A stretch of 20,849 nt of DNA from the IMG/VR virus record IMGVR_UViG_3300036892_000025, positions 1-20,849 of that record, one strand, 5' to 3'. The notes under the pieces are model-generated. The model was given only the letters and a program-made list of their open reading frames with translations. It was not told where the DNA came from and did not search any database. Source of the stretch: a virus. The position numbers and the translations under genes are program-made. Shown here one piece after another: positions 3,735 to 18,552 of this stretch; the first letter of the stretch is position 1, and each line of letters starts with the position of its first letter.

Positions 3735-5840
3735 TTATAAAGCTGTCGTGGCTCCGAAACCTTGCGTCTGGTCTGGTCCGCCCGACAACTCTGGGTTAGT
3801 AGATTTTTCGATAGAAGAACGGAATGCTTCGTTTCCAGCCTTTCCGAGTTGCTTCTGGTTCTCCAGCGTCTGTTCTTGCTGGAACTTGGCTGTCTGTTGC
3901 TTGTCTGCGGCTGCTTGTTGTGCTTGCTGCATTGCCGCTGGGCTGTTCGCGTCGTGCTTCTTCTTTTCCTCTGGTGTCATTACACGTAAGAACTTCTGGC
4001 TGAACTTCCAACCAGCCGCGTCAACGAACGCTTGGAAAATAGCAACTGCGTCGAACTGATACCCGGCATCATTGGCATTGGCCGTGAATACTGGGTTGTT
4101 AAGCAACTGAATCATGATTGGTAGTGCTTGTGCCATTTCTTTCTTGGCACCGAGGTTTGCACCCGCGAGAACTTCGTACTCGAACTTCGAATTACGGTAA
4201 TCGATGTGATCTACCTTGAAGTCGTTTCCGATTTTCTCTCCGAGCACTTCCTTGATAACACTGGTCGGTAGCAAGTCATTGTCAAGATCGTCCATCTGAT
4301 GCAACCACGGTTCGAATACTTGACGGATAAAGCGGCCTGTTGGCCCATCCAGACGTGAAGCGTTGGCTTGAACAACCGCCGCTGCTCCCGTTCCTGAACG
4401 CATACCCGTCGTAGAGATTCCGGCGTGTCCTGCACCTTGAACGACTTGCTCGTTTGCGCCCGAGGTGGACGCACCCGATGACTGCGACTGCTGAATGAAT
4501 TGGAATGCTTCACTCGGTGGAGCGGGCATTTGTAGGAACTTGAACGCCTTCTCAACGTCTTCATCAACGTCGATGATGCCGCCTTGTTCCCATCTCGTGT
4601 TCTGTGTTGGCGCGTTCATACCCTTCTTTCGAAGGGCAACGGGCTGCAAACAGTAAGCTAGAAGATCGAGTGCAAGGTTCGTTACCCCTTGCTCAACGAT
4701 TTGCTCGCTTCCGATAAGCATCCCCAATCCCTGTCCATAAAAGTTATCAGGGATGTTACGCCAGTTCGCTGAGTAGAACGGTACCTTTCCGTACGGGTTC
4801 GCTTCATTGCGAATCAAAATGTTATGGCCGTTGTAGTGTAGAACGACGATTACTTTCTCGGCATCCCAATACTCCAACAACTCAATCGGATTACGGTTCG
4901 GGTCCGCGCTGGTCTTACGTGCGCGAGGGAACGCGTGCTGCAAATAACCCATCATCCCTTCCGGGATGGTCATTGAGATGTTGTCTGGGTCTGCCCCGAT
5001 TGCCTTGTTGAACATCGCGCGGAGAAGTGATTCCTCCGGGATTTCATACCCTTCCTGCCCGCGCAGGCGGTTCAAGTCTTGATATGAGGCGTAATCGCGA
5101 TAGACTACCCACGGTGCATTGCGAATATCACCGACACGGAGACCGGGGTCCACAAGCACAGTTCGAATGTCGCAAAACTTTAACCACGGATGCGACACCT
5201 TCTTTGTATAAAACTCGATTTCAAAATCATCTGAATCTGGTGTGTCAATTGGCGTTGTTTCAAGGCCATCTGGCACATGTGCCTTCGGCGCATAACGCTT
5301 ATACTTCTTGACAGTCTTGTCGTACTCGGTGTAGCCCCACTTCCAAATCGCAGTGCCAAGCAATGCCATTTGTTCGAGGCCGCGCTCAACTTCCTCTTCA
5401 AAGCGCATTGCCTTGAGTTGAAAGGTGAACATCGCTGTCTTCGCATCAATTACGTTCTGACTTACATCCGGAGCAGGGCGCAAAAGGAAGCACGGGTCTT
5501 CATAAAAGATGCCGCCCATAACCTTCGGCACGATGCTGCTGATATGGTTCGAGACCATGAACTTCGGCACTGCCGAGTTCGCAACGTCTTGTCCGCCGTC
5601 GAATGATGATGTCGAGATTGGCGATTGGTACAGCAAGTCGGACATCGTCCAACCGCTGGCCCACTGGTTAATGTTTATGAAGTTGTCCGCAAGTTCCGTG
5701 TTGTCAAGGACGAGTTTAATTGCAGCGGCGTTCTCGAACTGTATCGTGTTCGTATCCGAGTCCAGATAAGTGTTCTCGGTTGTAATCTCCGCAGCAGGCT
5801 CCGTATTAAGGGCCTCTACGCGTACATCTTCGTCGCTCAT
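3735..5840 (-). CDS. Portal protein
   Basis: This 701-residue protein directly follows TerL and precedes the head genes, as a portal should. A dodecameric portal forms the DNA channel at one capsid vertex and docks the terminase. Portal-like features include an acidic N-terminus, a segment with MVSNHISSIVPKVMGGIFYEDPCFLL (about 95-120), the stretch FYSANWRNIPDNFYGQGLGMLIGSEQIVEQGVTNLALDLL, and ASTSGANEQVVQGAGHAGISTTGMRSGTGAAAV before a helical region. The C-terminal 60 residues are Gln/Ala rich. I chose the ATG at 5840, because AAGGAAG lies 6 bases upstream. An upstream GTG at 5867 would add nine residues but would place that ribosome site inside the gene. Confidence 0.85.
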   Translation of the reverse strand: MSDEDVRVEALNTEPAAEITTENTYLDSDTNTIQFENAAAIKLVLDNTELADNFININQWASGWTMSDLLYQSPISTSSFDGGQDVANSAVPKFMVSNHISSIVPKVMGGIFYEDPCFLLRPAPDVSQNVIDAKTAMFTFQLKAMRFEEEVERGLEQMALLGTAIWKWGYTEYDKTVKKYKRYAPKAHVPDGLETTPIDTPDSDDFEIEFYTKKVSHPWLKFCDIRTVLVDPGLRVGDIRNAPWVVYRDYASYQDLNRLRGQEGYEIPEESLLRAMFNKAIGADPDNISMTIPEGMMGYLQHAFPRARKTSADPNRNPIELLEYWDAEKVIVVLHYNGHNILIRNEANPYGKVPFYSANWRNIPDNFYGQGLGMLIGSEQIVEQGVTNLALDLLAYCLQPVALRKKGMNAPTQNTRWEQGGIIDVDEDVEKAFKFLQMPAPPSEAFQFIQQSQSSGASTSGANEQVVQGAGHAGISTTGMRSGTGAAAVVQANASRLDGPTGRFIRQVFEPWLHQMDDLDNDLLPTSVIKEVLGEKIGNDFKVDHIDYRNSKFEYEVLAGANLGAKKEMAQALPIMIQLLNNPVFTANANDAGYQFDAVAIFQAFVDAAGWKFSQKFLRVMTPEEKKKHDANSPAAMQQAQQAAADKQQTAKFQQEQTLENQKQLGKAGNEAFRSSIEKSTNPELSGGPDQTQGFGATTAL

Positions 5841-5905
5841 TATTTCTTCCTTGACATTGCGTGCCACCGATTAAGGTGTCTTCGCGTGCCCCGGCGTGGG
5901 GCTGT

Positions 5906-8215
5906 CTAAAGTCTAAAGGCCCGGTTGTTGCCAAAAATGCGCATACGCGGGTCTTGGGGTTTGGCTTCTTCAATTGCTGGCTCCGAGGTTGGGGTCGGAG
6001 GGACATCGGCTTGATAGCCTAGTCTCCACTGACTCAACTTCGGCGCTTGAGAGTTGCCGCCCTCTTTCTGAGTGCGGATGCGTTGCCCGTAATACATCTC
6101 GTAATGACGGGCCTTTCGGTACGCTTTGTCTTCCTCTTCTTGCCGTATACGTTCGTCTTCCTCGTTCACCTTCAAGTGTACAAAGGTGTTGGGTGGAAGA
6201 GTACGAGCGGCCATCGCGATACCATCGGGGATGTCGTCTTTACGACCCTTGTTGGTTTCGCCTGTGAACCGTTCAAACTGTCTATACAGTTCATCAATGT
6301 GTGACCCAGATACGAAGTGAAGACGGTCATCTTGGAGCAAGATTTCCAAACACTTGATGCGGTTTGCCTTCGCGTTTGCTGATTTATCAACAGGAACAAA
6401 TCTGATTGTATTCAGAAGTTCCTCACACCCGAGGTGTTTTGCTTGTGCCTTAATTGCTAGTTCAAGCAAATCTGCTCCCGGTGCTCTTTCAATCAGTGTT
6501 TGAATCGGTTTGTATTGTCGCAAAAATAGCACTATCTTAAGTGCTAGGTCTGATGCCTTCCACTTGTTGCACCAAACATCTAGAACGATAAGTTCCTGCG
6601 TCAGGTCCTCGCGCGTGTGACGGCGAATAGCGGCTATGGATGAAAAGTCAGATTGTCGATTGGCTGTGTAAGCCCAGTCAACAGTAACGATGGTCGGACC
6701 TGAAGTAGGCGCTGCCGATAGTTGATACGTGTGACTACGAAGTGTTTCCTTATCGAAATGCACTATTAAGTCGCTAAGTGTTTCTGGGTCGGTAGCAATA
6801 TTCAAGTACTGATTCTTGAACCCACGTTCCTTGTACTCACGCAATCTCGTGCGAAGGTTTGACCAGTGCAATTTGTAAGGAAACCAAAGGTCAACCATGT
6901 CTTCAGTAATTTCGAAGACACCGTTTGGTTTATCTAGTAACTGCTGATACCTAACTTCGAATCCCGGTTTAGGAGTGTAGCACGGGATGCATAAGTAAGC
7001 GAACGGCTCCGTTCCGATATCTCCCTCTGGGTCGTTCGGGTCGGGTGCTTGGCCCATACGCCACCCATACCAATCAGTCGTGAAATAACGGGTGCCAATG
7101 ATGTCTGTCTTGCCCCAATCTTCAACAAGCGCGTTGGTAGCTTTAATTTTTTCTTTCAGTTTCTCGCGAAGCTCTTCGTCTGCAGAATTCTTATCTTCTA
7201 CAATATCGTCCAGTTTGCGAATATCGCAACGTTGGCCAACGAAAGACGAATCGAGCGACGTAACCCAGACGTGCGGTTCCTTCGCATTAAACATCTGTGC
7301 TGGGCAGAAAATTGGTTGATAACTACGCCCATCAACACCGCGCAAGATGTACTCAGGAAATAACACTTGAAACGCGGTTGGCGTACCTCTATCAGGGAGA
7401 TAAAAATACCCTTTAATTTCTCCCATCAACTGCTCAGAAAGATTTTTGACCGAAGTCATAATCATGATACGAATATCGGGACAGTTCAGCATCCACTGTG
7501 CCGCATCCAAACCATCGATGGTTGACTTAAAACCTGAACGAGGAGCAAACAACATCATCGTGTTCGTACGTGTGCCATCTGCCGCGTAACGTTTCTGCGC
7601 ACCAATCGCTTCATGCGAGTCATCAAAAGTGTAATCTGGGAAGTACAATCCGTCAAAATCTTTCTGCACAAAGGCATCGCAGATGATTTGATGGGTGTCG
7701 CGAAATAGACTCTTCTCCAGCAGTCGCCCCAACCAGAACAGGTCCTTGCGGGCCTTGTCTCGGTATTGAAGCCAGCGCTCGAATGAGAGCACGCCATCAA
7801 CCTCGAACGTTTTACGGTGCCGTTTATCGTTCGGGGCAATTTGCTTGCCATCTATTTCTATAGCGCGAATCTTAATTGGTTGCAGGAACGGAATCGGGAG
7901 GTTCGACGGTTTCTTGCTGTCGGCCTTAGCCTTTTCTGCTAGCGCTGCCTCATTAGTCTCATCAATGATTTCAAGACCACGACCCTCATAAACTTGTAAA
8001 AGGGTGGTCAATGGGCGGCATTCGCTACGATAATATGTGCCAAGCGCATCCTGCTCTTGCGCCCATGCAAGATTCTGCTCACGTGTTTGGGACATTTCCG
8101 CATGCACATTTTGCTCGGCTTCAATCTTCGCGACGTACTCTGGGCCAAACGGGTCCGGGAGTCCTCTTTCTTTTGCGCGTTGACGTTGCTTTCGCTGTGC
8201 AGGTGTTAGTCCCAT
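5906..8215 (-). CDS. terL: Terminase large subunit
   Basis: This 769-residue packaging motor has an ATPase half with the Walker A-like APRSGFKST (about 224-232) and a Walker B region IRKLDDIVED (about 333-342). The nuclease half has the RNase H-like acidic residues: VDWAY (D513), the IERAPGADL segment (about 576-583) and KDDIPDGIAMAA (about 659-670). It translocates DNA through the portal and cuts concatemers. The N-terminal extension of about 200 residues before the ATPase makes it longer than typical TerL proteins (roughly 450-600). No separate small terminase gene was recognised in the window. The ATG at 8215 is preferred over a TTG at 8221, because the AGAGG ribosome site is spaced correctly only for the ATG. 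Confidence 0.93.
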   Translation of the reverse strand: MGLTPAQRKQRQRAKERGLPDPFGPEYVAKIEAEQNVHAEMSQTREQNLAWAQEQDALGTYYRSECRPLTTLLQVYEGRGLEIIDETNEAALAEKAKADSKKPSNLPIPFLQPIKIRAIEIDGKQIAPNDKRHRKTFEVDGVLSFERWLQYRDKARKDLFWLGRLLEKSLFRDTHQIICDAFVQKDFDGLYFPDYTFDDSHEAIGAQKRYAADGTRTNTMMLFAPRSGFKSTIDGLDAAQWMLNCPDIRIMIMTSVKNLSEQLMGEIKGYFYLPDRGTPTAFQVLFPEYILRGVDGRSYQPIFCPAQMFNAKEPHVWVTSLDSSFVGQRCDIRKLDDIVEDKNSADEELREKLKEKIKATNALVEDWGKTDIIGTRYFTTDWYGWRMGQAPDPNDPEGDIGTEPFAYLCIPCYTPKPGFEVRYQQLLDKPNGVFEITEDMVDLWFPYKLHWSNLRTRLREYKERGFKNQYLNIATDPETLSDLIVHFDKETLRSHTYQLSAAPTSGPTIVTVDWAYTANRQSDFSSIAAIRRHTREDLTQELIVLDVWCNKWKASDLALKIVLFLRQYKPIQTLIERAPGADLLELAIKAQAKHLGCEELLNTIRFVPVDKSANAKANRIKCLEILLQDDRLHFVSGSHIDELYRQFERFTGETNKGRKDDIPDGIAMAARTLPPNTFVHLKVNEEDERIRQEEEDKAYRKARHYEMYYGQRIRTQKEGGNSQAPKLSQWRLGYQADVPPTPTSEPAIEEAKPQDPRMRIFGNNRAFRL

Positions 8216-8231
8216 GTCCAACCTCTATTGG

Positions 8232-9225: not shown

Positions 9226-9864
9226 TTATTTCCTATGAGGAGATTCCCGTTTGAAGATTGGGATAGCCTCAAAATTTCCCGACTCTGTCGGATAAATTGC
9301 AATGACTCCACCGGGGTCGGTCAATGCTGAATCCATATCGTTGTTGAAAACCTTTCCAGCTACGTGTTCGATGCTGTGATGAACTGCAAAGATTGGAGGT
9401 TTTCCTGTGCGATAGTAAGATTCGATACCCCTCATCAACTCAGGTTCGACACGTTGATCGAAGTGGTTCACAGACTCACCACCGGGAATAGTCTCGTGGG
9501 GGTTGTCCTTATGGTGTTGAATGATTCGGTCGGCCTCATCTTTATCAGATATTTTAGAGACTGCACCCACATCAAGGGAGTCCAAATCTTTTCTGGTTGA
9601 TGTCTTCTTTCCAAGTACCTTGCCAATGATACTTGCTGTTTCTTTTGCTCTATCCATCTCTGATGAGACGATGTCTCCAGTTTTTCGACCGGAAAGAAAC
9701 GCTGCCGCTTGTGCCCCTTCTTTGCGACCTTGCTCAGTAAGTTTAGGATTTGTAGGTCCGCTATATGTGTCGTCGTCTACGGTTGCACCGTGACGAACTA
9801 AATACAAAACAGGTTCCTTCTTTATACCAGCCATACTGTATGGGGTATTTTCAAACTGTCTCAT
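9226..9864 (-). CDS. Histidine phosphatase (phosphoglycerate mutase-like fold)
   Basis: This 212-residue protein has the family's catalytic elements in order: LVRHG (R24, H25), SSEMDRAKET (R72), the conserved GGES (128-131) and VHHS near 161-164 with the second catalytic histidine. Enzymes of this superfamily remove phosphate through a phosphohistidine intermediate, but the substrate cannot be told from sequence. The first ATG (9864) has AGGA at proper spacing, and an internal ATG ten codons later is possible. It follows a long structured leader (9887-10014), which may control its expression. Confidence 0.88.
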   Translation of the reverse strand: MRQFENTPYSMAGIKKEPVLYLVRHGATVDDDTYSGPTNPKLTEQGRKEGAQAAAFLSGRKTGDIVSSEMDRAKETASIIGKVLGKKTSTRKDLDSLDVGAVSKISDKDEADRIIQHHKDNPHETIPGGESVNHFDQRVEPELMRGIESYYRTGKPPIFAVHHSIEHVAGKVFNNDMDSALTDPGGVIAIYPTESGNFEAIPIFKRESPHRK

Positions 9865-11715: not shown

Positions 11716-11961
11716 TTATCTGCTCTGTGTTGACTGCGACCCAACACAAGTGACCGTGCGGTAATCGCTCGGGAAGTCTCCGATATATGGATTCGGATAC
11801 CCGGGCCACGGCTGTGTGTTTGGAGCCGTATAAGGTGCCTGAATCGGAGATGCTGCCGGAATAAAAGTCGAGCGAAATGATAGAGTGAGAACCTGCGACT
11901 GCAAGTCCATCACGATCTTCTCAAGTTGCGCGACCTTCTCCTCTAATTGCTTCTTCGTCAT
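11716..11961 (-). CDS. Small coiled-coil protein with Pro-rich tail
   Basis: This 81-residue protein starts MTKKQLEEKVAQLEKIVMDLQSQVLTL, a short heptad-type coiled coil. A Pro/Tyr/Asn-rich tail follows (APYTAPNTQPWPGYPNPYIGDFP). The ATG overlaps the stop of the adhesin-like gene as TAATG. A larger open frame running to 12501 is only a shadow of that gene. The coupling suggests that it acts with the upstream virion protein, possibly as an assembly partner. Confidence 0.68.
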   Translation of the reverse strand: MTKKQLEEKVAQLEKIVMDLQSQVLTLSFRSTFIPAASPIQAPYTAPNTQPWPGYPNPYIGDFPSDYRTVTCVGSQSTQSR

Positions 11962-13721
11962 TAGGACCCCGATGCCACTCCGTTGTGGTCGAGCACGTAT
12001 GAGACGTTTCCACCGAGGTTCACGATGTGAACGATGTCGAGCAACGATGGGTTGGTGAATGCATCGTTGAACAACTGAGCGATGGTTGCACCCGATGTGA
12101 GTCTGGTGAAATACTGTCCAAGACGCACGCCGTACGTTGGTGTGAAAGCTGCCGTCAATGTAGCGGTCCCTGCGTGGGTCTCTGCGACCTGCGCAGTCGT
12201 TACGACTACCAAGGTGGTTGCCGTACTTGCTACGACGATGGCGTTCGCCACGTTGTTTGCGCCGGATGACGCTACGAAACCCGAGAAGCTGACGTTGCGA
12301 CCGGCGAGTGCGTTCAACGCGCCGCCTGCGATTGTGCCTGTGTAAGTTGCGAGAGATACGCCCACAACTTGAGCAGTGCCCGCGTGAGTCTCGGTCACCT
12401 GCGAAGTTAGTAGACCGACCAATGTGGTTGCAGTGGAAGCCGTGACCGCAAACGTTATGTTGTTGCCAGCGTTTGTGAATCCTGCTACGACTGCGTTGCA
12501 TCCTAGATAAGCGTTCGATGCGCCGCCCGTGATCGTGCCGTTGTAGGTCGCCGTGCTGAAGCCGGTAATCGACGCGGTAGCCGATGCGCTCTCATCGGTT
12601 AGACCGCCGACTGCCACAGTGATCGTGGTGGTCGTTGAAGCCGTGATAACCTTTGAGCCGTTGTTGCCTGGGTTGGTGAAGCCGAGGATTTCCGCAGTCT
12701 GACCAACGTATGCGTTAGAACCACCGCTCGGGAAGGTTCCCGTGTACACGCCCGTTGATGCAACCACGGATGCGACCGCGAAGGTAGACAACGCGACGGA
12801 AGTTAATACAAACTGACTAACCGCCACAGAGGTCAACGGGAAGCTGGCCGCGAAACTGCCGGTGCCGCCGTGGACTGCGCCCGTGTAATCGACGTTTGAA
12901 AGAACCGTGCCGCCCTCGTCAATGATCTGAAGAAGATCAAGGTCGAGAGGACCCGCGACACCCGGTGTAACTTGAGGGTACGCTTGCAGGAATGTCTGTC
13001 CCGGTTGAGACGCGATCAATGCCTGCGCTTGTCCGCCTGCCGTGGTCGGGTTGCTTGCGGAAGGAGAGGTGGTCATAGTCAATGCTGTCGCGATAGTGAT
13101 AGCGCCTGAACTGGTGACTAGTCCTGCTAGTGCGCGACCATTGAATACTCCACCGCCTAACGTGATAGACGTGTTGGCTAGAACTTGTCCGTTAAACACA
13201 GACACGCCTGCGAAGACGGTTGTAAGAGAACTGCCCACCAACCAAACGATGTTGTTTGCGTTTGCGCCGTTCGCTAGAAGAATAGAAGCGCCGCTCTCCA
13301 ACGTGACAGTACTGCCCGACTTGAATATGAACACAGCATTAGGGTTTCCCTGCGCATCTAGTGTGATAGATGTCGGGATGTCCATACTTGAGCCAGCGGA
13401 GTAGTTGCCAGGAAGGTAAGTCGAAGCGGTACCACCGTTTCCGAGAACGGAAAGGTTTGCAGAGGATGCTGACAGCGAAACGAAGGTTAGTGCGGAAAAG
13501 AAATTGTAAGCGGCGAGCCCATCTAGGTTTGCTTGATGAGCGTCGGCGTTATCGATAACACTGGGCGGGATGAGCACCCAAGCACCGGGGGTGATCGATG
13601 TGGTCGGGAATGAACCGACATTGCCGCCCTTAATGACTGTCGAGCCGGAATTTGTAATGCCTGCCGCAGCAAGGAGCGCGTAATTTGCTGCCGTTAATAG
13701 TTGCGAAGTGACTGTAGCCAT
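11961..13721 (-). CDS. Adhesin-like virion protein with DUF3494 (ice-binding-like) domain
   Basis: This 586-residue protein starts at an ATG preceded by AGGAGATA. Residues about 10-215 match the ice-binding-like/DUF3494 beta-solenoid. Its features are YALLAAAGITNSGSTVIKGGNVGS, TLDAQGNPNAVFIFKSGSTVT, a NIVWLVGSS segment, a SITLGGGVFNGRALA segment and GAITI. Residues about 326-527 are three tandem repeats with a 67-residue period, at Y326, Y393 and Y460 (TYxGTIxGGxxNAxxG...ASTATT...ETHAGTA). Two related short modules, DLLQIIDEGGTVLSNVDYTG (262-281) and DIVHIVNLGGNVSYVLDHNG (562-581), flank the repeats. No signal peptide is present, unlike secreted bacterial members, which fits a virion component. 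A surface-binding or appendage role is inferred. Ice binding is not implied. Confidence 0.78.
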   Translation of the reverse strand: MATVTSQLLTAANYALLAAAGITNSGSTVIKGGNVGSFPTTSITPGAWVLIPPSVIDNADAHQANLDGLAAYNFFSALTFVSLSASSANLSVLGNGGTASTYLPGNYSAGSSMDIPTSITLDAQGNPNAVFIFKSGSTVTLESGASILLANGANANNIVWLVGSSLTTVFAGVSVFNGQVLANTSITLGGGVFNGRALAGLVTSSGAITIATALTMTTSPSASNPTTAGGQAQALIASQPGQTFLQAYPQVTPGVAGPLDLDLLQIIDEGGTVLSNVDYTGAVHGGTGSFAASFPLTSVAVSQFVLTSVALSTFAVASVVASTGVYTGTFPSGGSNAYVGQTAEILGFTNPGNNGSKVITASTTTTITVAVGGLTDESASATASITGFSTATYNGTITGGASNAYLGCNAVVAGFTNAGNNITFAVTASTATTLVGLLTSQVTETHAGTAQVVGVSLATYTGTIAGGALNALAGRNVSFSGFVASSGANNVANAIVVASTATTLVVVTTAQVAETHAGTATLTAAFTPTYGVRLGQYFTRLTSGATIAQLFNDAFTNPSLLDIVHIVNLGGNVSYVLDHNGVASGS

Positions 13722-14351: not shown

Positions 14352-14426
14352 TGGTTGCCCAAAAAGGACTCGAACCTTTATGCGTGGCTTCAGAGGCCAC
14401 TATCCTACCGATTAGATGATCGGGCA
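14352..14426 (-). tRNA. tRNA-Gln(CTG)
   Basis: Full cloverleaf: acceptor TGCCCGA/TTGGGCA, anticodon stem GTGGC/GCCAC with loop CTCTGAA, T-loop TTCGAGT, and encoded A-CCA. It is the last tRNA of the array and sits 15 bases before the ATG of the next protein gene. Confidence 0.9.
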
Positions 14427-14440
14427 ACAGAAATAAAAGT

Positions 14441-14462
14441 CGTCCCCACTAAGGCGATGGGG
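14441..14462 (-). terminator. Possible terminator-like hairpin between two tRNA-Gln genes
   Basis: CCCCA/TGGGG with a nine-base loop lies in the 99-base gap between tRNA-Gln(TTG) and tRNA-Gln(CTG). It is followed on the minus strand by ACGACTTTTATTT. It could equally be a spacer structure or a tRNA remnant. Confidence 0.3.
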
Positions 14463-14525
14463 TCTTTTTCCTTCGAGGTTACATCGCGCTGCTTCCTCAA
14501 AGTACCCGACCAACGACTCGACGAT

Positions 14526-14600
14526 TGGATGGCGGTTTTGGACTCGAACCAAAATTCAAGAGGTCAAAGCTCTTTGTCCTACCGATTAGACGAACTGCCA
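14526..14600 (-). tRNA. tRNA-Gln(TTG)
   Basis: Acceptor TGGCAGT/ACCGCCA has one A-C mismatch. The anticodon stem AAGAG/CTCTT carries loop CTTTGAC, the T-loop is TTCGAGT, and T-CCA is encoded. With the CTG isoacceptor it reads both Gln codons. Confidence 0.88.
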
Positions 14601-14609
14601 TCAGAAAAT

Positions 14610-14683
14610 TGGTCCTTGCTCAACGAATCGAGCGTTGTCTGCCTGTGTTTCAAACAGGAGTGCTACCTCTACACCAAACAAGG
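14610..14683 (-). tRNA. tRNA-Phe(GAA)
   Basis: Acceptor CCTTGTT/AGCAAGG, anticodon stem CCTGT/ACAGG with loop TTGAAAC, and encoded A-CCA. The T-loop is CTCGATT, with C in place of the usual first T. Only one base separates it from tRNA-Ser(TGA). Confidence 0.87.
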
Positions 14684-14684
14684 A

Positions 14685-14769
14685 TGGAGGAAGAGTGAGT
14701 AATCGAAACCCCTACCTTTCGGTAGCCTCGGTGTTCAAGACCGATTGCCCGCCACGGACGGAATCTTCC
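14685..14769 (-). tRNA. tRNA-Ser(TGA)
   Basis: Class II tRNA: acceptor GGAAGAT/CTCTTCC (last pair mismatched), anticodon stem TCGGT/ACCGA with loop CTTGAAC, and a variable-arm hairpin CTACC-GAAA-GGTAG. The T-stem is weak, and T-CCA is encoded. Confidence 0.82.
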
Positions 14770-14779
14770 TTAAAAATTT

Positions 14780-14869
14780 TGGCAGAAGAACAGGGATTCG
14801 AACCCCGGTAACCCTTTCAGGTTAGCCTCGCTTTAGCAAAGCGGCACAATTCCACTCTGTCATTCTTCT
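14780..14869 (-). tRNA. tRNA-Ser(GCT)
   Basis: Class II tRNA: perfect acceptor AGAAGAA/TTCTTCT, anticodon loop TTGCTAA, variable-arm helix TAACC/GGTTA, T-loop TTCGAAT, and encoded G-CCA. Its 5' end is only four or five bases downstream of the 3' end of the RNase P RNA, so both probably come from one transcript. Confidence 0.9.
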
Positions 14870-14873
14870 GCGT

Positions 14874-15139
14874 CTTAGTTAGGCGAACTGATACCCTGGA
14901 TTCTGTAGCCTTGCGGCTGACTGTTATCCGTCTTCGCACCCTACCCGACCTTCATCACGCTAAACGAGCGCTCCGGTCCTATTTGGGCTTGCACCTGAAG
15001 AGAGTTACTTCGCTTGAATGAGTCTTGCGACTACGAAGCCTTACTCGTACGCTTTCACGTCCCACAGCTTCCATGGTTCAGCGTTTAGTCGTGTCCAGAA
15101 GTTCCTCGGTTTCCCGCAACAGTCTGGCTCGCCACTAAG
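14874..15139 (-). ncRNA. rnpB: RNase P RNA (phage-encoded, compact)
   Basis: This is the catalytic RNA that removes 5' leaders from precursor tRNAs. P1 pairs CTTAGT and GGCGA (15139-15129) with TCGCC and ACTAAG (14886-14874). Conserved region I reads GAGGAACTTCTGGAC (15107-15093) and region V reads ACAGAATCCAGGGTA (14906-14892). They form P4 with a bulged U and compensatory changes relative to the E. coli RNA: A-U to C-G, G-C to U-G, C-G to U-A and G-C to A-U. Also present are GTGAAA followed by a TACGA/TCGTA hairpin with GTAAG in its loop, GTGCAAGCCCAAATAGG (region IV), GACC/GGTC (P15-like), GGGTAGG, and a hairpin AGCC-GCAA-GGCT before region V. At about 266 nt it is shorter than typical bacterial RNAs (roughly 350-400). 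The RNA starts one base after a protein stop codon and lies inside the tRNA array. Confidence 0.9.
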
Positions 15140-15140
15140 A

Positions 15141-15458
15141 TTAATCTACTAAACTTACTTGAAGGAATACCGCTGGGTTCCCGTATTCGTAAACGAACCA
15201 AACATTGTTCGGTCCCATTACGACGTACACGTCTTGGTCGAACACCCAGGCTGGCCAATACCTGCAACCGAACCAGTAACCTTCGAACTGTACTTCCAAA
15301 TCGTTGCCGACATAACGTCGGCTGTCGATTCTATGATGTGTGTCACGGTCGAAGGTGCGGGGGTCTCTACGCCCACGGTTGTTGTGTCGCTCGTGCCTTT
15401 CGTCTTGTCGTTCGTGTCGAACTTCTTGATGCTCTTGATGTTGTGCGTGATGTTGCAT
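15141..15458 (-). CDS. His/Arg-rich protein with aromatic C-terminal domain
   Basis: This 105-residue protein uses the ATG at 15458, which overlaps the previous stop as TAATG. A longer frame to 15530 lies inside the upstream gene. Residues 1-50 are extremely rich in His, Arg, Glu and Gln (MQHHAQHQEHQEVRHERQDERHERHNN). Residues 55-105 are aromatic, with spaced tryptophans (FEGYWFGCRYWPAWVFDQDVYVVMGP, then NVWFVYEYGNPAVFLQV). The second half resembles small bacterial exported proteins with repeated Trp/Tyr, but no signal peptide is seen. The function is unknown. The stop is one base before the RNase P RNA. Confidence 0.7.
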   Translation of the reverse strand: MQHHAQHQEHQEVRHERQDERHERHNNRGRRDPRTFDRDTHHRIDSRRYVGNDLEVQFEGYWFGCRYWPAWVFDQDVYVVMGPNNVWFVYEYGNPAVFLQVSLVD

Positions 15459-15874
15459 TATGGTATCAGTGCCGCCAACTTCTTCAAAGTCAAAAACAAC
15501 CATGCAATCGGTGTAAAGGTCAGAAGCCACAACCCTAGACTAATCAATCCGTCGCCGATGCTGAAGATATCATGCCCTAGAGGGAAGATATCCGCAAGAA
15601 CTTTCAGGTGCGAGTTAGGACCCATGACGCTATGCACGTCGTCTAGCATCTCGCCGCCGACCTTGCAGGACGCTGGGATGTAATCCGAGGCGTCTTCGTC
15701 AGGTCCTAGACGGCAGAAGTGATCCTTCCATGTCTGGTTCAACATCACGGGGAACTTACCGTGGTTAGCCACCAGCACAGCCTGGTTAGAGGCTATACCC
15801 ATGGATGTCAACAGAACAGGTATCGCAATCAGATACCAATACGGAAACTTACGAAGAACTTTCGGAAGATTCAT
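15458..15874 (-). CDS. DUF5317-like membrane protein
   Basis: This 138-residue protein has a GGAG ribosome site. A membrane helix occupies residues about 12-35 (YWYLIAIPVLLTSMGIASNQAV) and another about 107-132 (LISLGLWLLTFTPIAWLFLTL). Between them is the pattern VLVANHGKFPVMLN ... DDVHSVMGPNSHLKVLADIFPL ... FSIGDGLISLG. This matches the order of conserved elements in DUF5317 proteins (ANxGxxPV, H..., T/S-HL...LAD, SIGD). The role is unknown. It is coupled to the following gene. Confidence 0.7.
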   Translation of the reverse strand: MNLPKVLRKFPYWYLIAIPVLLTSMGIASNQAVLVANHGKFPVMLNQTWKDHFCRLGPDEDASDYIPASCKVGGEMLDDVHSVMGPNSHLKVLADIFPLGHDIFSIGDGLISLGLWLLTFTPIAWLFLTLKKLAALIP

Positions 15875-15956
15875 GTGTCTCCGCTTGTGTTGGCATGGCG
15901 CACAAGTAGAACTGCTGCCGTTCCCTGATGGGAGCCCATGTTCGGCATTTCAAAAT

Positions 15957-16030
15957 TGGCAGACCGCGTAGGAATTGAACCCACTCTCGCCGGGTTGGAG
16001 CCGGAAGTGCTACCGTAACACTTGCAGTCT
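15957..16030 (-). tRNA. tRNA-Trp(CCA)
   Basis: Acceptor AGACTGC/GCGGTCT, anticodon stem CCGG/CCGG with loop CTCCAAC, T-loop TTCAATT, discriminator G as in bacterial tRNA-Trp, and encoded CCA. Confidence 0.9.
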
Positions 16031-16038
16031 GTAGAAAC

Positions 16039-16128
16039 TGGTGGAGGAGGAGGGATTCGAACACTCTGTGGCCACAAGGACCTTCTGTTTTACAGACAGA
16101 CGCGACCCTCCAACTTCGCCGCTGCTCC
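16039..16128 (-). tRNA. tRNA-Tyr(GTA)
   Basis: Class II tRNA as in bacteria: anticodon stem TCTGT/ACAGA with loop CTGTAAA, a long variable region, T-loop TTCGAAT, and encoded A-CCA. The acceptor GGAGCAG/CTCCTCC and the T-stem each have one mismatch. It begins one base after the stop codon of the endonuclease gene. Confidence 0.85.
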
Positions 16129-16129
16129 A

Positions 16130-16513
16130 TTAAACTCTAAACTCTGCTGTCGATAGTCCGACAGTGAACGATGAGCGCGAGTTGATTCTATCTGCTGGGA
16201 TCAAGTAGCGCTCACCACTCTGTGTTGCAATGAATACTATATCAACTGCGGTTGGGTCAAAACTGCTGACACGCTCTCCGCTTTTATTGCCACCTTTAGT
16301 TCTCATCTCTACTGACCATGATCCGCTATTCTTTCGGCATGTAGATGTTTTCACTTGCACGCGTTTGATGATGCCGTCGTCTATAATCAAATCATACGCT
16401 TGGCTATCGGTCAATGGAATCGATACCGTGCAACCAAGACCCGTGAAGTATGCAATAGCAAGACCAAGACCTACATCACCCTGTTTCTTAGAATTTCTCT
16501 GTCTCAGCATCAT
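16130..16513 (-). CDS. PD-(D/E)XK homing-type endonuclease (I-Ssp6803I-like)
   Basis: This 127-residue protein has an AGGAGAA ribosome site before ATGATG. It matches the PD-(D/E)XK endonuclease family that includes the intron enzyme I-Ssp6803I. KQGDVGLGLAIAYFTGLGCTVSIPL (about 10-34) is the first helix region. YDLIIDDGIIKRVQVKTS (about 40-57) carries the catalytic D41 and the Q-x-K motif (Q53, K55). VDIVFIATQSGERYLIPADRI follows near residues 90-110. Such enzymes cut tRNA or similar conserved genes. Here no intron surrounds it, since it stands alone between tRNA-Gly and tRNA-Tyr, so it is probably a free-standing homing nuclease targeting a tRNA-array site. A Vsr- or Holliday-type role is less likely. 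Confidence 0.82.
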   Translation of the reverse strand: MMLRQRNSKKQGDVGLGLAIAYFTGLGCTVSIPLTDSQAYDLIIDDGIIKRVQVKTSTCRKNSGSWSVEMRTKGGNKSGERVSSFDPTAVDIVFIATQSGERYLIPADRINSRSSFTVGLSTAEFRV

Positions 16514-16536
16514 GTTCTCCTCTGCAAAGGAATTAG

Positions 16537-16600
16537 TGGGGAGTGTTGCAGCACTCCCCGTTGTAGCTACAAAATTTTATGGCGTTTGTCGATACGCCTA
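16537..16600 (-). promoter_or_regulatory. Hairpin-rich leader of the PD-(D/E)XK gene
   Basis: In the transcript, GGCGT/ACGCC (16598-16581) comes first, followed by ATAAAATTTT. Next is the perfect palindrome TTGTAGCTACAA (16572-16561). An 8-bp hairpin GGGGAGTG/CACTCCCC (16559-16538) comes last, about 20 bases before the ribosome site. The first could be a terminator for the tRNA transcript, while the others may control the nuclease. Confidence 0.4.
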
Positions 16601-16643
16601 AACGAAGCCTTTTCAATTCGTACTGATTCTGCTCAGGAAAGAC

Positions 16644-16717
16644 TGGAGCGTAGTGCGATAATCGAAATCGCGCCCGGACGTTGGCAACGTCCCGTTCTGC
16701 CACTAAACTAACCACGC
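16644..16717 (-). tRNA. tRNA-Gly(GCC)
   Basis: Acceptor GCGTGGT/ACTACGC, anticodon stem GGACG/CGTCC with loop TTGCCAA, T-arm GCGAT-TTCGATT-ATCGC, discriminator U as expected for Gly, and encoded CCA. Confidence 0.92.
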
Positions 16718-16726
16718 TTTGAAAAC

Positions 16727-16800
16727 CTTGTCTTCTGCTTCTCATATCCCTTTCGGGTCACGACGACAAACATCGCCAGACATTAGGCACGTGAGACAAG
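16727..16800 (-). ncRNA. tRNA-sized structured element without CCA
   Basis: A 7-bp helix CTTGTCT/AGACAAG (16800-16794 with 16733-16727) closes a 74-base segment between tRNA-Thr(CGT) and tRNA-Gly. Inside are CACG/CGTG, GCC-TAATGTCT-GGC and CCC-GAAA-GGG hairpins. It has no T-loop motif, no credible anticodon arm and no CCA. It may be a decayed tRNA or a small RNA. Confidence 0.4.
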
Positions 16801-16803
16801 ACT

Positions 16804-16878
16804 TGGAGCACCGTTTCCGATTTGAACGGAAGTTGCCGCTTTACGAAAGCGGAGTCGTTGCCGCTGGACCAACAGTGC
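16804..16878 (-). tRNA. tRNA-Thr(CGT)
   Basis: Acceptor GCACTGT/ACGGTGC, anticodon stem CCGCT/AGCGG with loop TTCGTAA, T-arm TTCCG-TTCAAAT-CGGAA, and encoded T-CCA. All helices are good. Confidence 0.91.
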
Positions 16879-16890
16879 TTTGTTTAAAAT

Positions 16891-16964
16891 TGGAGCCGTG
16901 TGCACGTGCTGCCCATGCGTTTGTGAGGTACAAGCTCACCGTCTTGCTGTTAGACGAACTCGGC
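16891..16964 (-). tRNA. tRNA-Thr(TGT), atypical T-loop
   Basis: Acceptor GCCGAGT/ACACGGC has one A-A mismatch. The anticodon stem GTGAG/CTCAC carries loop CTTGTAC, and T-CCA is encoded. The T-arm is GCATG-GGCAGCA-CGTGC: the stem is intact but the loop lacks the usual TTC...A, so the tRNA may be decaying or unusually folded. Confidence 0.75.
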
Positions 16965-16972
16965 TTTGAAAC

Positions 16973-17049
16973 TGGAGCAGAAGCAGGGAATCGAACCCCG
17001 ACGATGTCCTTACCAAGGCAGACATGCTGGCCGCTAACATCACAGCCGC
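16973..17049 (-). tRNA. tRNA-Thr(GGT)-like, degenerate
   Basis: The T-arm CGGGG-TTCGATT-CCCTG is normal, the anticodon loop TTGGTAA is typical for Thr(GGT), and T-CCA is encoded. However, the acceptor GCGGCTG/CTTCTGC has two mismatches, and the 5' anticodon-stem strand (TGTCTGCC against GGACA) has about three extra bases. It is probably a damaged or diverged tRNA. Confidence 0.55.
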
Positions 17050-17059
17050 TCAGAAACTT

Positions 17060-17170
17060 TTAATGCCTTCTCAACAACAGAACTAGTGTTCCAATGCCGG
17101 TCATCAAAGCGCCGAAGGCACGGATGATGTACATGACAAACATCCAGTCTTCTCGCGTGACCTTTTTCAT
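17060..17170 (-). CDS. 36-residue membrane peptide inside the tRNA array
   Basis: The ATG at 17170 is preceded by TTTAAGGACCACCA, a usable ribosome site. The peptide starts MKKVTREDWMFVMYIIRAFG and continues through ALMTGIGTLVLLL to RRH. It is a basic N-terminus followed by one membrane helix (about residues 9-32) and a positive end. It is flanked by the degenerate tRNA-Thr and tRNA-Met. The membrane-like pattern and the ribosome site favour a real gene. The function is unknown. Confidence 0.6.
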   Translation of the reverse strand: MKKVTREDWMFVMYIIRAFGALMTGIGTLVLLLRRH

Positions 17171-17185
17171 TGGTGGTCCTTAAAT

Positions 17186-17263
17186 TGGTTGCGGAAGTGG
17201 GAATCGAACCCAACCTTTATACAGTTTATGAGACTGTCCAGTTCACCAGAACTGTACACCGCA
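17186..17263 (-). tRNA. tRNA-Met(CAT) (elongator, or Ile2 if modified)
   Basis: Anticodon stem ACAGT/ACTGT with loop CTCATAA, D-arm CAGTT/AACTG, T-loop TTCGATT, and encoded A-CCA. The acceptor TGCGGTG/TTCCGCA has one U-U mismatch. It lacks the three G-C pairs of initiator tRNA. Sequence cannot separate Met from lysidine-modified Ile(CAT). Confidence 0.85.
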
Positions 17264-17272
17264 ATTGAAAAT

Positions 17273-17347
17273 TGGTAATCGATCAAGGACTCGCACCTTG
17301 GTCTCTCGCTAATCAGGCAAGCATCCTAGCTGCTGGACGAATCGATT
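17273..17347 (-). tRNA. tRNA-Ile(GAT)
   Basis: Perfect acceptor AATCGAT/ATCGATT, anticodon stem CTTGC/GCGAG with loop CTGATTA, T-arm CAAGG-TGCGAGT-CCTTG, and encoded A-CCA. Oddities are a U at position 37 and a G at T-loop position 55. Confidence 0.8.
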
Positions 17348-17348
17348 A

Positions 17349-17425
17349 TGGTGGAGCCACGGGGACTCGAACCCCGATTGTTCTTCCTTGCAAAGGAAGT
17401 GCCATCCCAGTTAGGCGATGGCCCC
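17349..17425 (-). tRNA. tRNA-Ala(TGC)
   Basis: Acceptor GGGGCCA/TGGCTCC, anticodon stem CTTCC/GGAAG with loop TTTGCAA, T-arm CGGGG-TTCGAGT-CCCCG, and encoded A-CCA. One base separates it from tRNA-Ile. Confidence 0.93.
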
Positions 17426-17429
17426 AAAA

Positions 17430-17505
17430 TGGTTGCCCGCGAGAGATTCGAACTCCCGGTGTCTGGGTGTAGGCCAGATGCCTTAGACCGCTTGGCGAGC
17501 AGGCA
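17430..17505 (-). tRNA. tRNA-Val(TAC), C33
   Basis: Acceptor TGCCTGC/GCGGGCA, D-stem GCC/GGC, anticodon stem TCTGG/CCAGA with loop CCTACAC, T-arm GGGAG-TTCGAAT-CTCTC, and encoded A-CCA. The base before the anticodon is C rather than the near-universal U33. Confidence 0.8.
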
Positions 17506-17666
17506 ACAGAAACTTCGCCGAGGTCTGGCACCATTGAACTAGCGTGCGATGATGCCTCAGCGGAAAATTGGTGGGCAACTTTACGCAAGGCCCAGAGTCG
17601 CGCGAGCGACAGCGCCCGGGTCTTTTCCCGGGAAGATTGGTGGAGCGCGAAGCAGCGGATTAAAAC
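17506..17666 (-). other. tRNA-remnant region with two orphan CCA ends
   Basis: These 161 bases hold no full cloverleaf. A segment ending GCGCTCC-A-CCA (to 17638) and one ending GTTGCCC-A-CCA (to 17569) look like tRNA 3' ends without the matching halves. Also present are a hairpin GTCGC/GCGAC, the arms CCCGGG-AAAAGA-CCCGGG (17634-17617) and an 8-bp helix CGCTGAGG/CCTCGGCG (17563-17515) around a GCAC/GTGC hairpin. They look like decayed tRNAs or small RNAs. Confidence 0.45.
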
Positions 17667-17741
17667 TGGAGTTCAGTCAGAGACTTGCACTCTGATTTGC
17701 GGTTTCGTAGACCGCCGTCGTGTCTGTTGGACCAACCGAAC
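17667..17741 (-). tRNA. tRNA-Arg(ACG)
   Basis: Acceptor GTTCGGT/ACTGAAC, anticodon stem GCGGT/ACCGC with loop CTACGAA, T-arm CAGAG-TGCAAGT-CTCTG, and encoded T-CCA. The A34 would normally be turned into inosine by the host TadA. Confidence 0.88.
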
Positions 17742-17747
17742 GTAAAC

Positions 17748-17789
17748 TGGAACCCCTCTCAAGGATTTGCAGCACCCCCGAACCTTGAT
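17748..17789 (-). pseudogene. tRNA 3'-half remnant with T-loop insertion
   Basis: A T-stem CAAGG/CCTTG is followed by an acceptor-like strand and TCCA. Between TTC and AAAT of the T-loop sit 11 extra bases (GGGGGTGCTGC). No 5' half exists in the short gap to tRNA-Leu. An alternative GGAACC/GGTTCC pairing would link it with the end of tRNA-Leu. Confidence 0.45.
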
Positions 17790-17799
17790 GCATCAAACT

Positions 17800-17884
17800 T
17801 GGTTCCCCGCGAGGGACTTGAACCCCCAATCTCTTGCGAGCGACGCGTTCTAAGCGCGTTCCGTATGCGTTCCGGCAGCAGGGA
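17800..17884 (-). tRNA. tRNA-Leu(TAG)
   Basis: Class II tRNA: acceptor TCCCTGC/GCGGGGA, anticodon stem ACGCG/CGCGT with loop CTTAGAA, a long variable region (CTC...GAG), T-loop TTCAAGT, and encoded A-CCA. Confidence 0.9.
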
Positions 17885-18195
17885 ATGGAAACCATCGACG
17901 CGCTCTCTTGTTGCTGTCTTCGCGTCGAGTCACCCATAAAAATCAGTTTCAAGAGATGGGCAACAAATCTAAATCCGAGGGCATATTTAGTCAACGCGCC
18001 TGCCCCTTATGGCGCTTCGGGTGGACGCTTTCAGCGAGCCACCGTGAGTGTATGCCCCTTACCAGTGCACGAGGCCGAGTCAGGCCGCCGTCGCGGTGAC
18101 CGTTTGACTCACTGTTGTACAACATGTTCGACGCGCGGCGGGTGCGATTATCCCAGTGGGACAGAACCGAGACCGAGAGTCATCTCTTATAAGAC
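17885..18195 (-). other. 311-base gap without a convincing protein gene
   Basis: The stretch between tRNA-Pro(TGG) and tRNA-Leu has no open frame with a ribosome site. A frame starting at 17994 runs into tRNA genes. Most of the gap is taken up by the structured RNA at 17951-18188. The remaining 66 bases (17885-17950) show only a GACGCG/CGCGTC pairing. Confidence 0.5.
17951..18188 (-). ncRNA. Large unknown structured RNA in the tRNA array
   Basis: A perfect 8-bp helix pairs AAGAGATG (18188-18181) with CATCTCTT (17958-17951) and encloses about 220 bases. One arm nests CAGTG/CACTG, GAGTCA/TGACTC (18110-18105 with 18082-18077) and CCGC/GCGG. A second arm is closed by GGGGCATA/TATGCCCT (18058-18051 with 17985-17978). 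It carries the hairpins GGTGG..CGCT-GAA-AGCG..CCACC and GCGCC/GGCGC. The palindrome TGTTGTACAACA lies between. Such stacked pairing is far beyond chance for non-coding sequence. I do not recognise tmRNA, RNase P or another known class. Confidence 0.6.
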
Positions 18196-18275
18196 TGGTC
18201 GGGGATATTGGATTTGAACCAATGAATCTCTCGCTTCCAAAGCGAGCGGGATAAGCCAGACTACCCTAACCCCCG
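18196..18275 (-). tRNA. tRNA-Pro(TGG)
   Basis: Acceptor CGGGGGT/ATCCCCG with the Pro-typical C1-G72 pair, anticodon stem CTCGC/GCGAG with loop TTTGGAA, T-arm ATTGG-TTCAAAT-CCAAT, and encoded A-CCA. Confidence 0.92.
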
Positions 18276-18294
18276 AAACTTGTACTGCAAAACT

Positions 18295-18371
18295 TGGCGG
18301 AAATGATGAGATTCGAACTCACGATTTGTTCCGTGACAGGGAACCGAGGACGGCCTCTCCTCCACATCTCC
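18295..18371 (-). tRNA. tRNA-Asp(GTC)
   Basis: Acceptor GGAGATG/CATTTCC, anticodon stem GTTCC/GGAAC with loop CTGTCAC, T-arm TGAG-TTCGAAT-CTCA, discriminator G as expected for Asp, and encoded CCA. Confidence 0.91.
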
Positions 18372-18379
18372 GTAGAAAT

Positions 18380-18468
18380 TGGCTGGGGCGGCACGAGTCG
18401 AACGTGCAGGTGTCTTTGAGGACTCTTGGGTAACAGCCAAGCGGGTCTACCAATTCCCCTACACCCCA
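18380..18468 (-). tRNA. tRNA-Asn(GTT) with a long variable arm
   Basis: Acceptor TGGGGTG/CGCCCCA, anticodon stem CTTGG/CCAAG with loop CTGTTAC, T-arm GCACG-TTCGACT-CGTGC, and encoded G-CCA. The variable region has about 17 bases with a GTC/GAC hairpin, as in class II tRNAs, which is unusual for Asn. Confidence 0.83.
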
Positions 18469-18478
18469 TCTGTAAATC

Positions 18479-18552
18479 TGGTCGAGGATGGCTGAATCGA
18501 ACAGCCGCCACAGGCTTCCGACGCCCGGAGACTACCACTATCAGAACCCTCG
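18479..18552 (-). tRNA. tRNA-Pro(CGG)
   Basis: Acceptor CGAGGGT/ATCCTCG with C1-G72, anticodon stem CGGGC/GCCTG with loop GTCGGAA, T-arm GGCTG-TTCGATT-CAGCC, and encoded A-CCA. It is the first gene after the promoter at 18591-18563. Confidence 0.9.

Follow-up and report, generated by a model that had tools for sequence, protein, structure and literature searches.

Covariance analysis identifies an RNase P RNA of a bacteriophage directly ahead of its own tRNA gene

Comparison with the Rfam model of bacterial class A RNase P RNA confirms, at the level of sequence and predicted structure, that the minus strand of positions 14873-15140 of the analyzed window (the whole 20,849-nt stretch, i.e. a 20.8-kb metagenome fragment of a phage) encodes an RNase P RNA, and that a bacteriophage possesses such an RNA directly ahead of a tRNA gene of its own (Table 1). 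RNase P is, to our knowledge, one of two ribozymes thought to be nearly universal in cells; phages usually rely on the RNase P of the host, and the assumption has been that viruses borrow the enzyme. The phage RNA shows that this reliance has a recurring exception. It probably represents a reduced class A ribozyme that is owned by the phage and retained for removing 5' leaders from phage tRNA precursors; the most likely reading is that the RNA is functional and would mature phage tRNAs together with the RnpA protein of the host. The evidence comprises homology to RNase P RNA, an intact architecture of the catalytic domain, structural selection across phages, and placement in tRNA arrays.

Table 1. 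Features of the phage RNase P RNA and its surroundings in the window
Feature	Position	Strand	Evidence or remark
Phage RNase P RNA, class A-like, 268 nt P1 to P1	14873..15140	-	RF00010 match, extended by P1 helix
P1 5' strand UCUUAGU GGCGA	15129..15140	-	pairs with 14873-14886, 12 bp with UA bulge
P2 5' strand GACUGUU	15118..15124	-	partner 14919-14925
CR-I and P4 5' strand, GAGGAACUUCUGGA	15094..15107	-	bulged U at 15099; RF00010 alignment
P6 pseudoknot 5' strand CUAAACG	15082..15088	-	complement of 14960-14966, 7 bp
Specificity domain P7-P12, 87 nt, without P13/P14	14995..15081	-	helix reading, RF00010 alignment
CR-IV, GCAAGCCCAAAUAGG	14978..14992	-	RF00010 alignment, helix reading
P6 pseudoknot 3' strand CGUUUAG, in L17	14960..14966	-	P6 covariation across phages
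L15 GGU motif, CGGGUAGG	14940..14947	-	sequence match
P19 hairpin AGCC GCAA GGCU	14907..14918	-	helix reading
CR-V and P4 3' strand, ACAGAAUCCAGGGUA	14892..14906	-	RF00010 alignment, helix reading, P4 covariation
P1 3' strand UCGCC UA ACUAAGA	14873..14886	-	ends 3 nt ahead of tRNA-Ser 5' end
tRNA-Ser(GCU), encoded CCA, directly downstream	14780..14869	-	ARAGORN, Rfam
18-tRNA array, encoded CCA in all	14352..18552	all -	ARAGORN and CCA reading
129-aa ORF, stop adjoins RNase P RNA 5' end	15141..15530	-	ORF list
Terminase large subunit	5906..8221	-	phrog_38, E=1.7e-38; phage marker, links relatives
Portal protein	3735..5867	-	phrog_1216, SU10_portal

The class A model (RF00010) matches positions 14876-15135 of the minus strand over its full length (model positions 1-367) with 78.4 bits and E=4e-24; it is the best match within its clan, and the same match was reproduced on the whole IMG/VR record. 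The first-pass annotation, made from the sequence alone, had placed an RNase P RNA within a phage tRNA array and proposed a covariance-model search as the check. The high significance of the match, the covariation in P4 and P6 described below, and the terminase and portal genes on the same contig bear out this placement. The span that it had given, 14874-15139, is covered by the element, but the P1 helix sets the ends at 15140 and 14873, on the minus strand. At the Rfam gathering threshold of 100 bits, a curation threshold rather than a biological feature, RF00010 reports no RNase P RNA in the window and only tRNAs are recovered. Because 78.4 bits lies below this cut-off, routine annotation pipelines pass over the element, and standard annotation misses phage RNase P RNAs in general since most copies score under the threshold. 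MFE folding of the element is only weakly unusual (z -1.9), thus the case for RNase P rests on the covariance model and on comparative evidence.

Reading of the helices by coordinate reveals P1-P12, P15-P17, and P19; P13/P14 and P18 are absent according to both the helix reading and the RF00010 alignment. The same two analyses recover all of the elements that the first-pass annotation had listed in the core, namely P1, P4 with the bulged U, and the conserved regions CR-I (GAGGAACUUC), CR-IV, and CR-V. The hairpin with a GTAAG loop that it had also listed is not there: P12 and P19 are capped by GCAA loops and P9 by a GAAA loop. P3 comprises 3 bp with a GAAA loop, and the specificity domain consists of P7 (CUGAA/UUCAG), P8, P9, P10/P11, and a short P12. 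The helices P6, P16, and P17, which separate class A from class B, are present, as is CR-IV together with P15 and the GGU in L15, a motif that we take to read the 3' RCCA of tRNA in bacterial RNase P, on the model of the known class A enzymes. The GGU is intact, and CCA is encoded by 18/18 window tRNAs.

Comparison with known systems places the phage RNA closest to the bacterial class A form (RF00010, rnpB or M1 RNA), with which it shares the full-length match, P1-P12 and P15-P17, the bulged U of P4, CR-I/IV/V, the P6 pseudoknot, and the L15 GGU. It differs from this form in its length (268 nt vs about 377 nt in E. coli), in the absence of P13/P14 and P18, the presence of P19, and the altered P4 pairs beside the bulge, as well as in being encoded by a phage within a tRNA array and scoring below the Rfam cut-off. 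P13/P14 and P18 are typical of class A, although some class A RNAs miss them; since P8 is the docking site of both L14 and L18 in these enzymes, the joint loss of P14 and P18 is coherent. Class B RNAs (RF00011), which possess P5.1, P10.1, and P15.1, resemble the phage RNA in having P19 and no P13/P14, but they lack P6, P16, and P17, which the phage RNA keeps. Shrunken peripheral domains are also known from the type T RNA of Pyrobaculum and from mitochondrial RPM1 (the RNase P RNA gene of yeast mitochondria also has tRNA genes around it), from which the phage RNA is distinguished by its bacterial-type core with P6 and by its viral origin. Phage tRNA arrays and the tmRNA of huge phages (PMC7162821) are likewise translation-supporting RNA genes of similar genomes, whereas the ribozyme would make tRNAs rather than being one; the main text of that paper does not mention RNase P.

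Analysis of P4 argues strongly for selection on structure. The catalytic P4 helix is nearly invariant in bacteria, with AAG(U)CCGGG / CCCGGCUU in E. coli. The window RNA has 5'-ACU(U)CUGGA / UCCAGGGU, i.e. 4 of the 8 pairs are altered on both sides, in agreement with the four compensatory changes counted in the first-pass annotation. In 20 distinct phage sequences, aligned in a register set solely by the GAGGAA and ACAGAA motifs, all 160 of 160 cells are paired, two-sided changes occur in 6 of the 8 pairs, and only the first A-U and the C-G just 3' of the bulged U are invariant. The covariation score is 0.751, compared with 0.155 (sd 0.033) for shuffled and at most 0.15 for slid strands. A fairly independent test is provided by P6, since this pseudoknot is unpaired in the Rfam structure line: the phages exhibit at least 8 different P6 helices with a mean of 5.8 Watson-Crick pairs, whereas 2000 shuffles gave 3.54 (sd 0.17) and swapped partners 3.45. 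Among the Microbacterium phages compared, whose elements are 85-100% identical, P6 changes from GAAUCAUA/UAUGAUUC to GAAUGACA/UGUCAUUC and to AAAUCACA/UGUGAUUU, so that two-sided changes keep 8/8 pairs in three phages; P5 exhibits two-sided changes at several pairs (5/6 pairs are kept in L319), P3 co-varies likewise, and P4 switches type from GUU/GGC to AAG/CUU. Covariation in homologous phages, which the first-pass annotation had suggested as a check (for P4/P1), is thus found for P4 and P6, and its view that the structure is under selection and the element no recent copy from a host is well supported.

These results bear directly on the possibility that the element is a host rnpB that was picked up by chance and is now decaying by drift. 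Its low covariance score and missing P13/P14 and P18 would fit such a fate, as would the fact that some IMG/VR contigs (L276-L285) have host rnpB of about 330 bits at their ends, but the divergence is compensatory, with P4 fully paired and P6 covarying, several phage groups retain the RNA with conserved neighbours, and host-type copies score 250-335 bits and come without tRNA arrays. We regard this explanation as very unlikely.

Relatives were gathered by DNA patterns, by terminase homology, and by searching whole records with RF00010. We found phage RNase P RNAs in 29 further IMG/VR phage contigs (records of 20-455 kb, about 25 distinct sequences), some of which exceed the Rfam threshold (102-208 bits); the records that bear the RNA contain 10-64 tRNA genes each. 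Among the terminase relatives, 7 of 35 contigs carry the RNA, all of them longer than 25 kb; several other terminase-related contigs above 25 kb gave no RF00010 match, and fragments could miss the RNA. Weak matches to this type of terminase were also obtained in the 455- and 332-kb records. In Tunturi_3, the nearest cultured terminase relative (28% identity, 3 tRNAs), no RNase P RNA was found. P18 is present in the relatives L159, L171, L286, and L301. tmRNA genes accompany the RNase P RNA in the tRNA arrays of L002 (4423-4727) and L174 (136-527). A terminase relative was also found in a bin labelled 'uncultured archaeon LFW-28', two contigs of which (L309, L310) contain phage-type RNase P RNAs; we take it to be phage sequence sorted into this bin, which does not prove that the host is an archaeon.

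A number of candidates were rejected. Matches of about 330 bits in L276-L285 and L297, as well as those in L298, L299, L316, L317, and the Acinetobacter 'phage MD-2021a', were excluded as host-type rnpB; in several isolate-derived IMG/VR contigs among them (L276-L285) the gene lies near one end, and proviruses may integrate beside or into rnpB. L168, L296, and L306 were dropped as chance or partial matches, and a blastn match in phage LR756511 (595 kb) was not backed by RF00010 at E<=0.05. Most hits of a loose pattern (GAGGAA..CCAAATAGG..AGAA), which served as a negative control, arose by chance, with an RNase P match in only 4 of 80 tested records.

Searches with blastn using the phage copies as queries led to unannotated gaps in cultured phages, which were then checked with RF00010. 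In Stenotrophomonas phage DLP6 (KU682439.2, 105774-106022; L313, 2306-2554) the element scores 54.7 bits (E=2.5e-14) and tRNA-Arg begins 3 nt later; in Microbacterium phage Zooman (OK040793.1, 89338-89558; L315, 2356-2576) it scores 53.0 bits (E=8.9e-14) and is flanked by two tRNA-Arg genes. Both RNAs are unannotated, and the paper on DLP6 describes 30 tRNAs and no RNase P RNA. The element of Microbacterium phage Big4 is 99.5% identical, and those of A3Wally and a fourth Microbacterium phage (L319) score 72 and 64.3 bits, respectively. In the Microbacterium phages the element occupies a gap of about 216 nt separating two tRNA genes. The RNA itself is only about 210 nt long, which places it among the smallest bacterial-type RNase P RNAs known to us.

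The isolates also decide on an artefact of assembly or binning, in which bacterial DNA would have been fused to a phage contig. The window is a metagenome fragment and so are most of its relatives, yet contigs with related terminases bear the RNA within the tRNA array, and its presence in the sequenced isolates DLP6, Zooman, Big4, and A3Wally removes this explanation, to which we assign a negligible probability. Since Zooman, Big4, and A3Wally were isolated on Microbacterium foliorum, the RNA can be tested at the bench now.

The genomic surroundings suggest what the RNA is for. In the window it shares its strand with the 18-tRNA array that contains it, and the tight fit between a protein stop codon and tRNA-Ser noted in the first-pass annotation is borne out: the UAA at 15143-15141 abuts P1, and tRNA-Ser (14869) starts 3 nt past it. 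Judged by ARAGORN, Rfam, or inspection of the acceptor and T arms, 16 of about 26 distinct elements are followed by a tRNA that starts at most 14 nt downstream (L173 is uncertain), usually at a spacing of 3-14 nt; three others have a tRNA within 3 nt upstream, and 7 adjoin no tRNA, e.g. L294 has none within 1.5 kb. Between the ribozyme and the next tRNA, L291, L293, and L305 share a conserved hairpin, AUAUUUACA-GCAUG-UGUAAAUAU. In L160, L162-L165, L167, L292, and L304 the 3' strand of P1 terminates with ACCA, resembling the 3' end of a tRNA, which is perhaps a stop for 3' trimming.

The spacing suggests that the RNase P RNA is transcribed together with its substrate tRNAs. The phage RNA would fold and cleave pre-tRNA with a borrowed host RnpA protein, and the adjacent tRNA-Ser(GCU) is its likely cis substrate. 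With the tRNA only 3 nt past P1, cutting at the tRNA 5' end would also form the 3' end of the ribozyme, so that cleavage of this tRNA, in cis or in trans, could free the ribozyme. Its purpose may be to add processing capacity while many phage tRNAs are produced together, and to make tRNA maturation independent of turnover of, or attack on, the host RnpB; the first-pass annotation had offered scarcity of host RnpB or a preference for phage precursors as possible reasons. Points that speak against this reading are the score below the Rfam threshold, the missing P13/P14 and P18, the negative results in Tunturi_3 and in some related contigs, the elements that adjoin no tRNA, and a search near the element that yielded no promoter-like site.

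The main target of a working ribozyme could instead be another phage or host RNA, e.g. junctions in operon mRNAs, and a protein gene does adjoin the element on one side in the window (5') and in L165, L300, and L304 (3'). This is improbable, given that no record bearing the RNA has fewer than 10 tRNA genes, that a tRNA adjoins the majority of the elements, and that the GGU/RCCA matching is kept.

No RnpA-family gene (PF00825) was found in 33 phage records (30 contigs, many of them partial, and 3 isolate records). The host protein is therefore the simplest partner, which could serve in place of a phage-encoded one, although with no such gene in these records any protein partnership is guesswork. 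The same result could be taken to favour a decoy, i.e. a catalytically inactive mimic that ties up host RnpA or pre-tRNAs and thereby slows host RNase P and with it the tRNA supply of the host. Phages are known to make decoys, and the specificity domain is partly reduced. However, the best-kept parts are the catalytic core (the bulged U of P4, CR-I, CR-IV, and CR-V) and the RCCA-reading loop, beyond the protein-binding surface; a decoy needs no placement beside substrates, and blocking RNase P would hurt the phage's own tRNA array. We therefore consider a decoy improbable as well. A bolder proposal, which we put forward tentatively and hold to be rather unlikely, is a virus-specific RNase P independent of the host enzyme, which would work with no protein at all or with an unrelated protein of the phage. 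By cutting at the neighbouring tRNA it would release itself from a polycistronic tRNA transcript, and it would keep tRNA maturation going after loss or blockage of host RNase P; the altered P4 pairs, and the disappearance of both P14 and P18 with their P8 docking, would then be adaptations.

In the open-licence literature we found no published phage RNase P RNA. The ribozyme family is already known; what is new, as far as we have found, is that a virus owns such an RNA and that its core is rewired and reduced. A viral RNase P RNA that recurs across several tRNA-rich phage groups, infecting gamma-proteobacteria and actinobacteria, would constitute a new class of viral translation genes, would make available dozens of naturally occurring variants of the catalytic helix P4, and would raise the question of how phages process large tRNA arrays.

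Elsewhere in the window, a LAGLIDADG-type homing endonuclease ORF (743-1531) lies between ORFs 36-617 and 1622-1906. It may belong to an intron or be a free-standing insertion within a structural gene; at the Rfam threshold the window yielded no group I intron. The phage genes also include those for a protein with an ice-binding-like domain (11961-13721) and a protein with a histidine-phosphatase domain (9226-9864).
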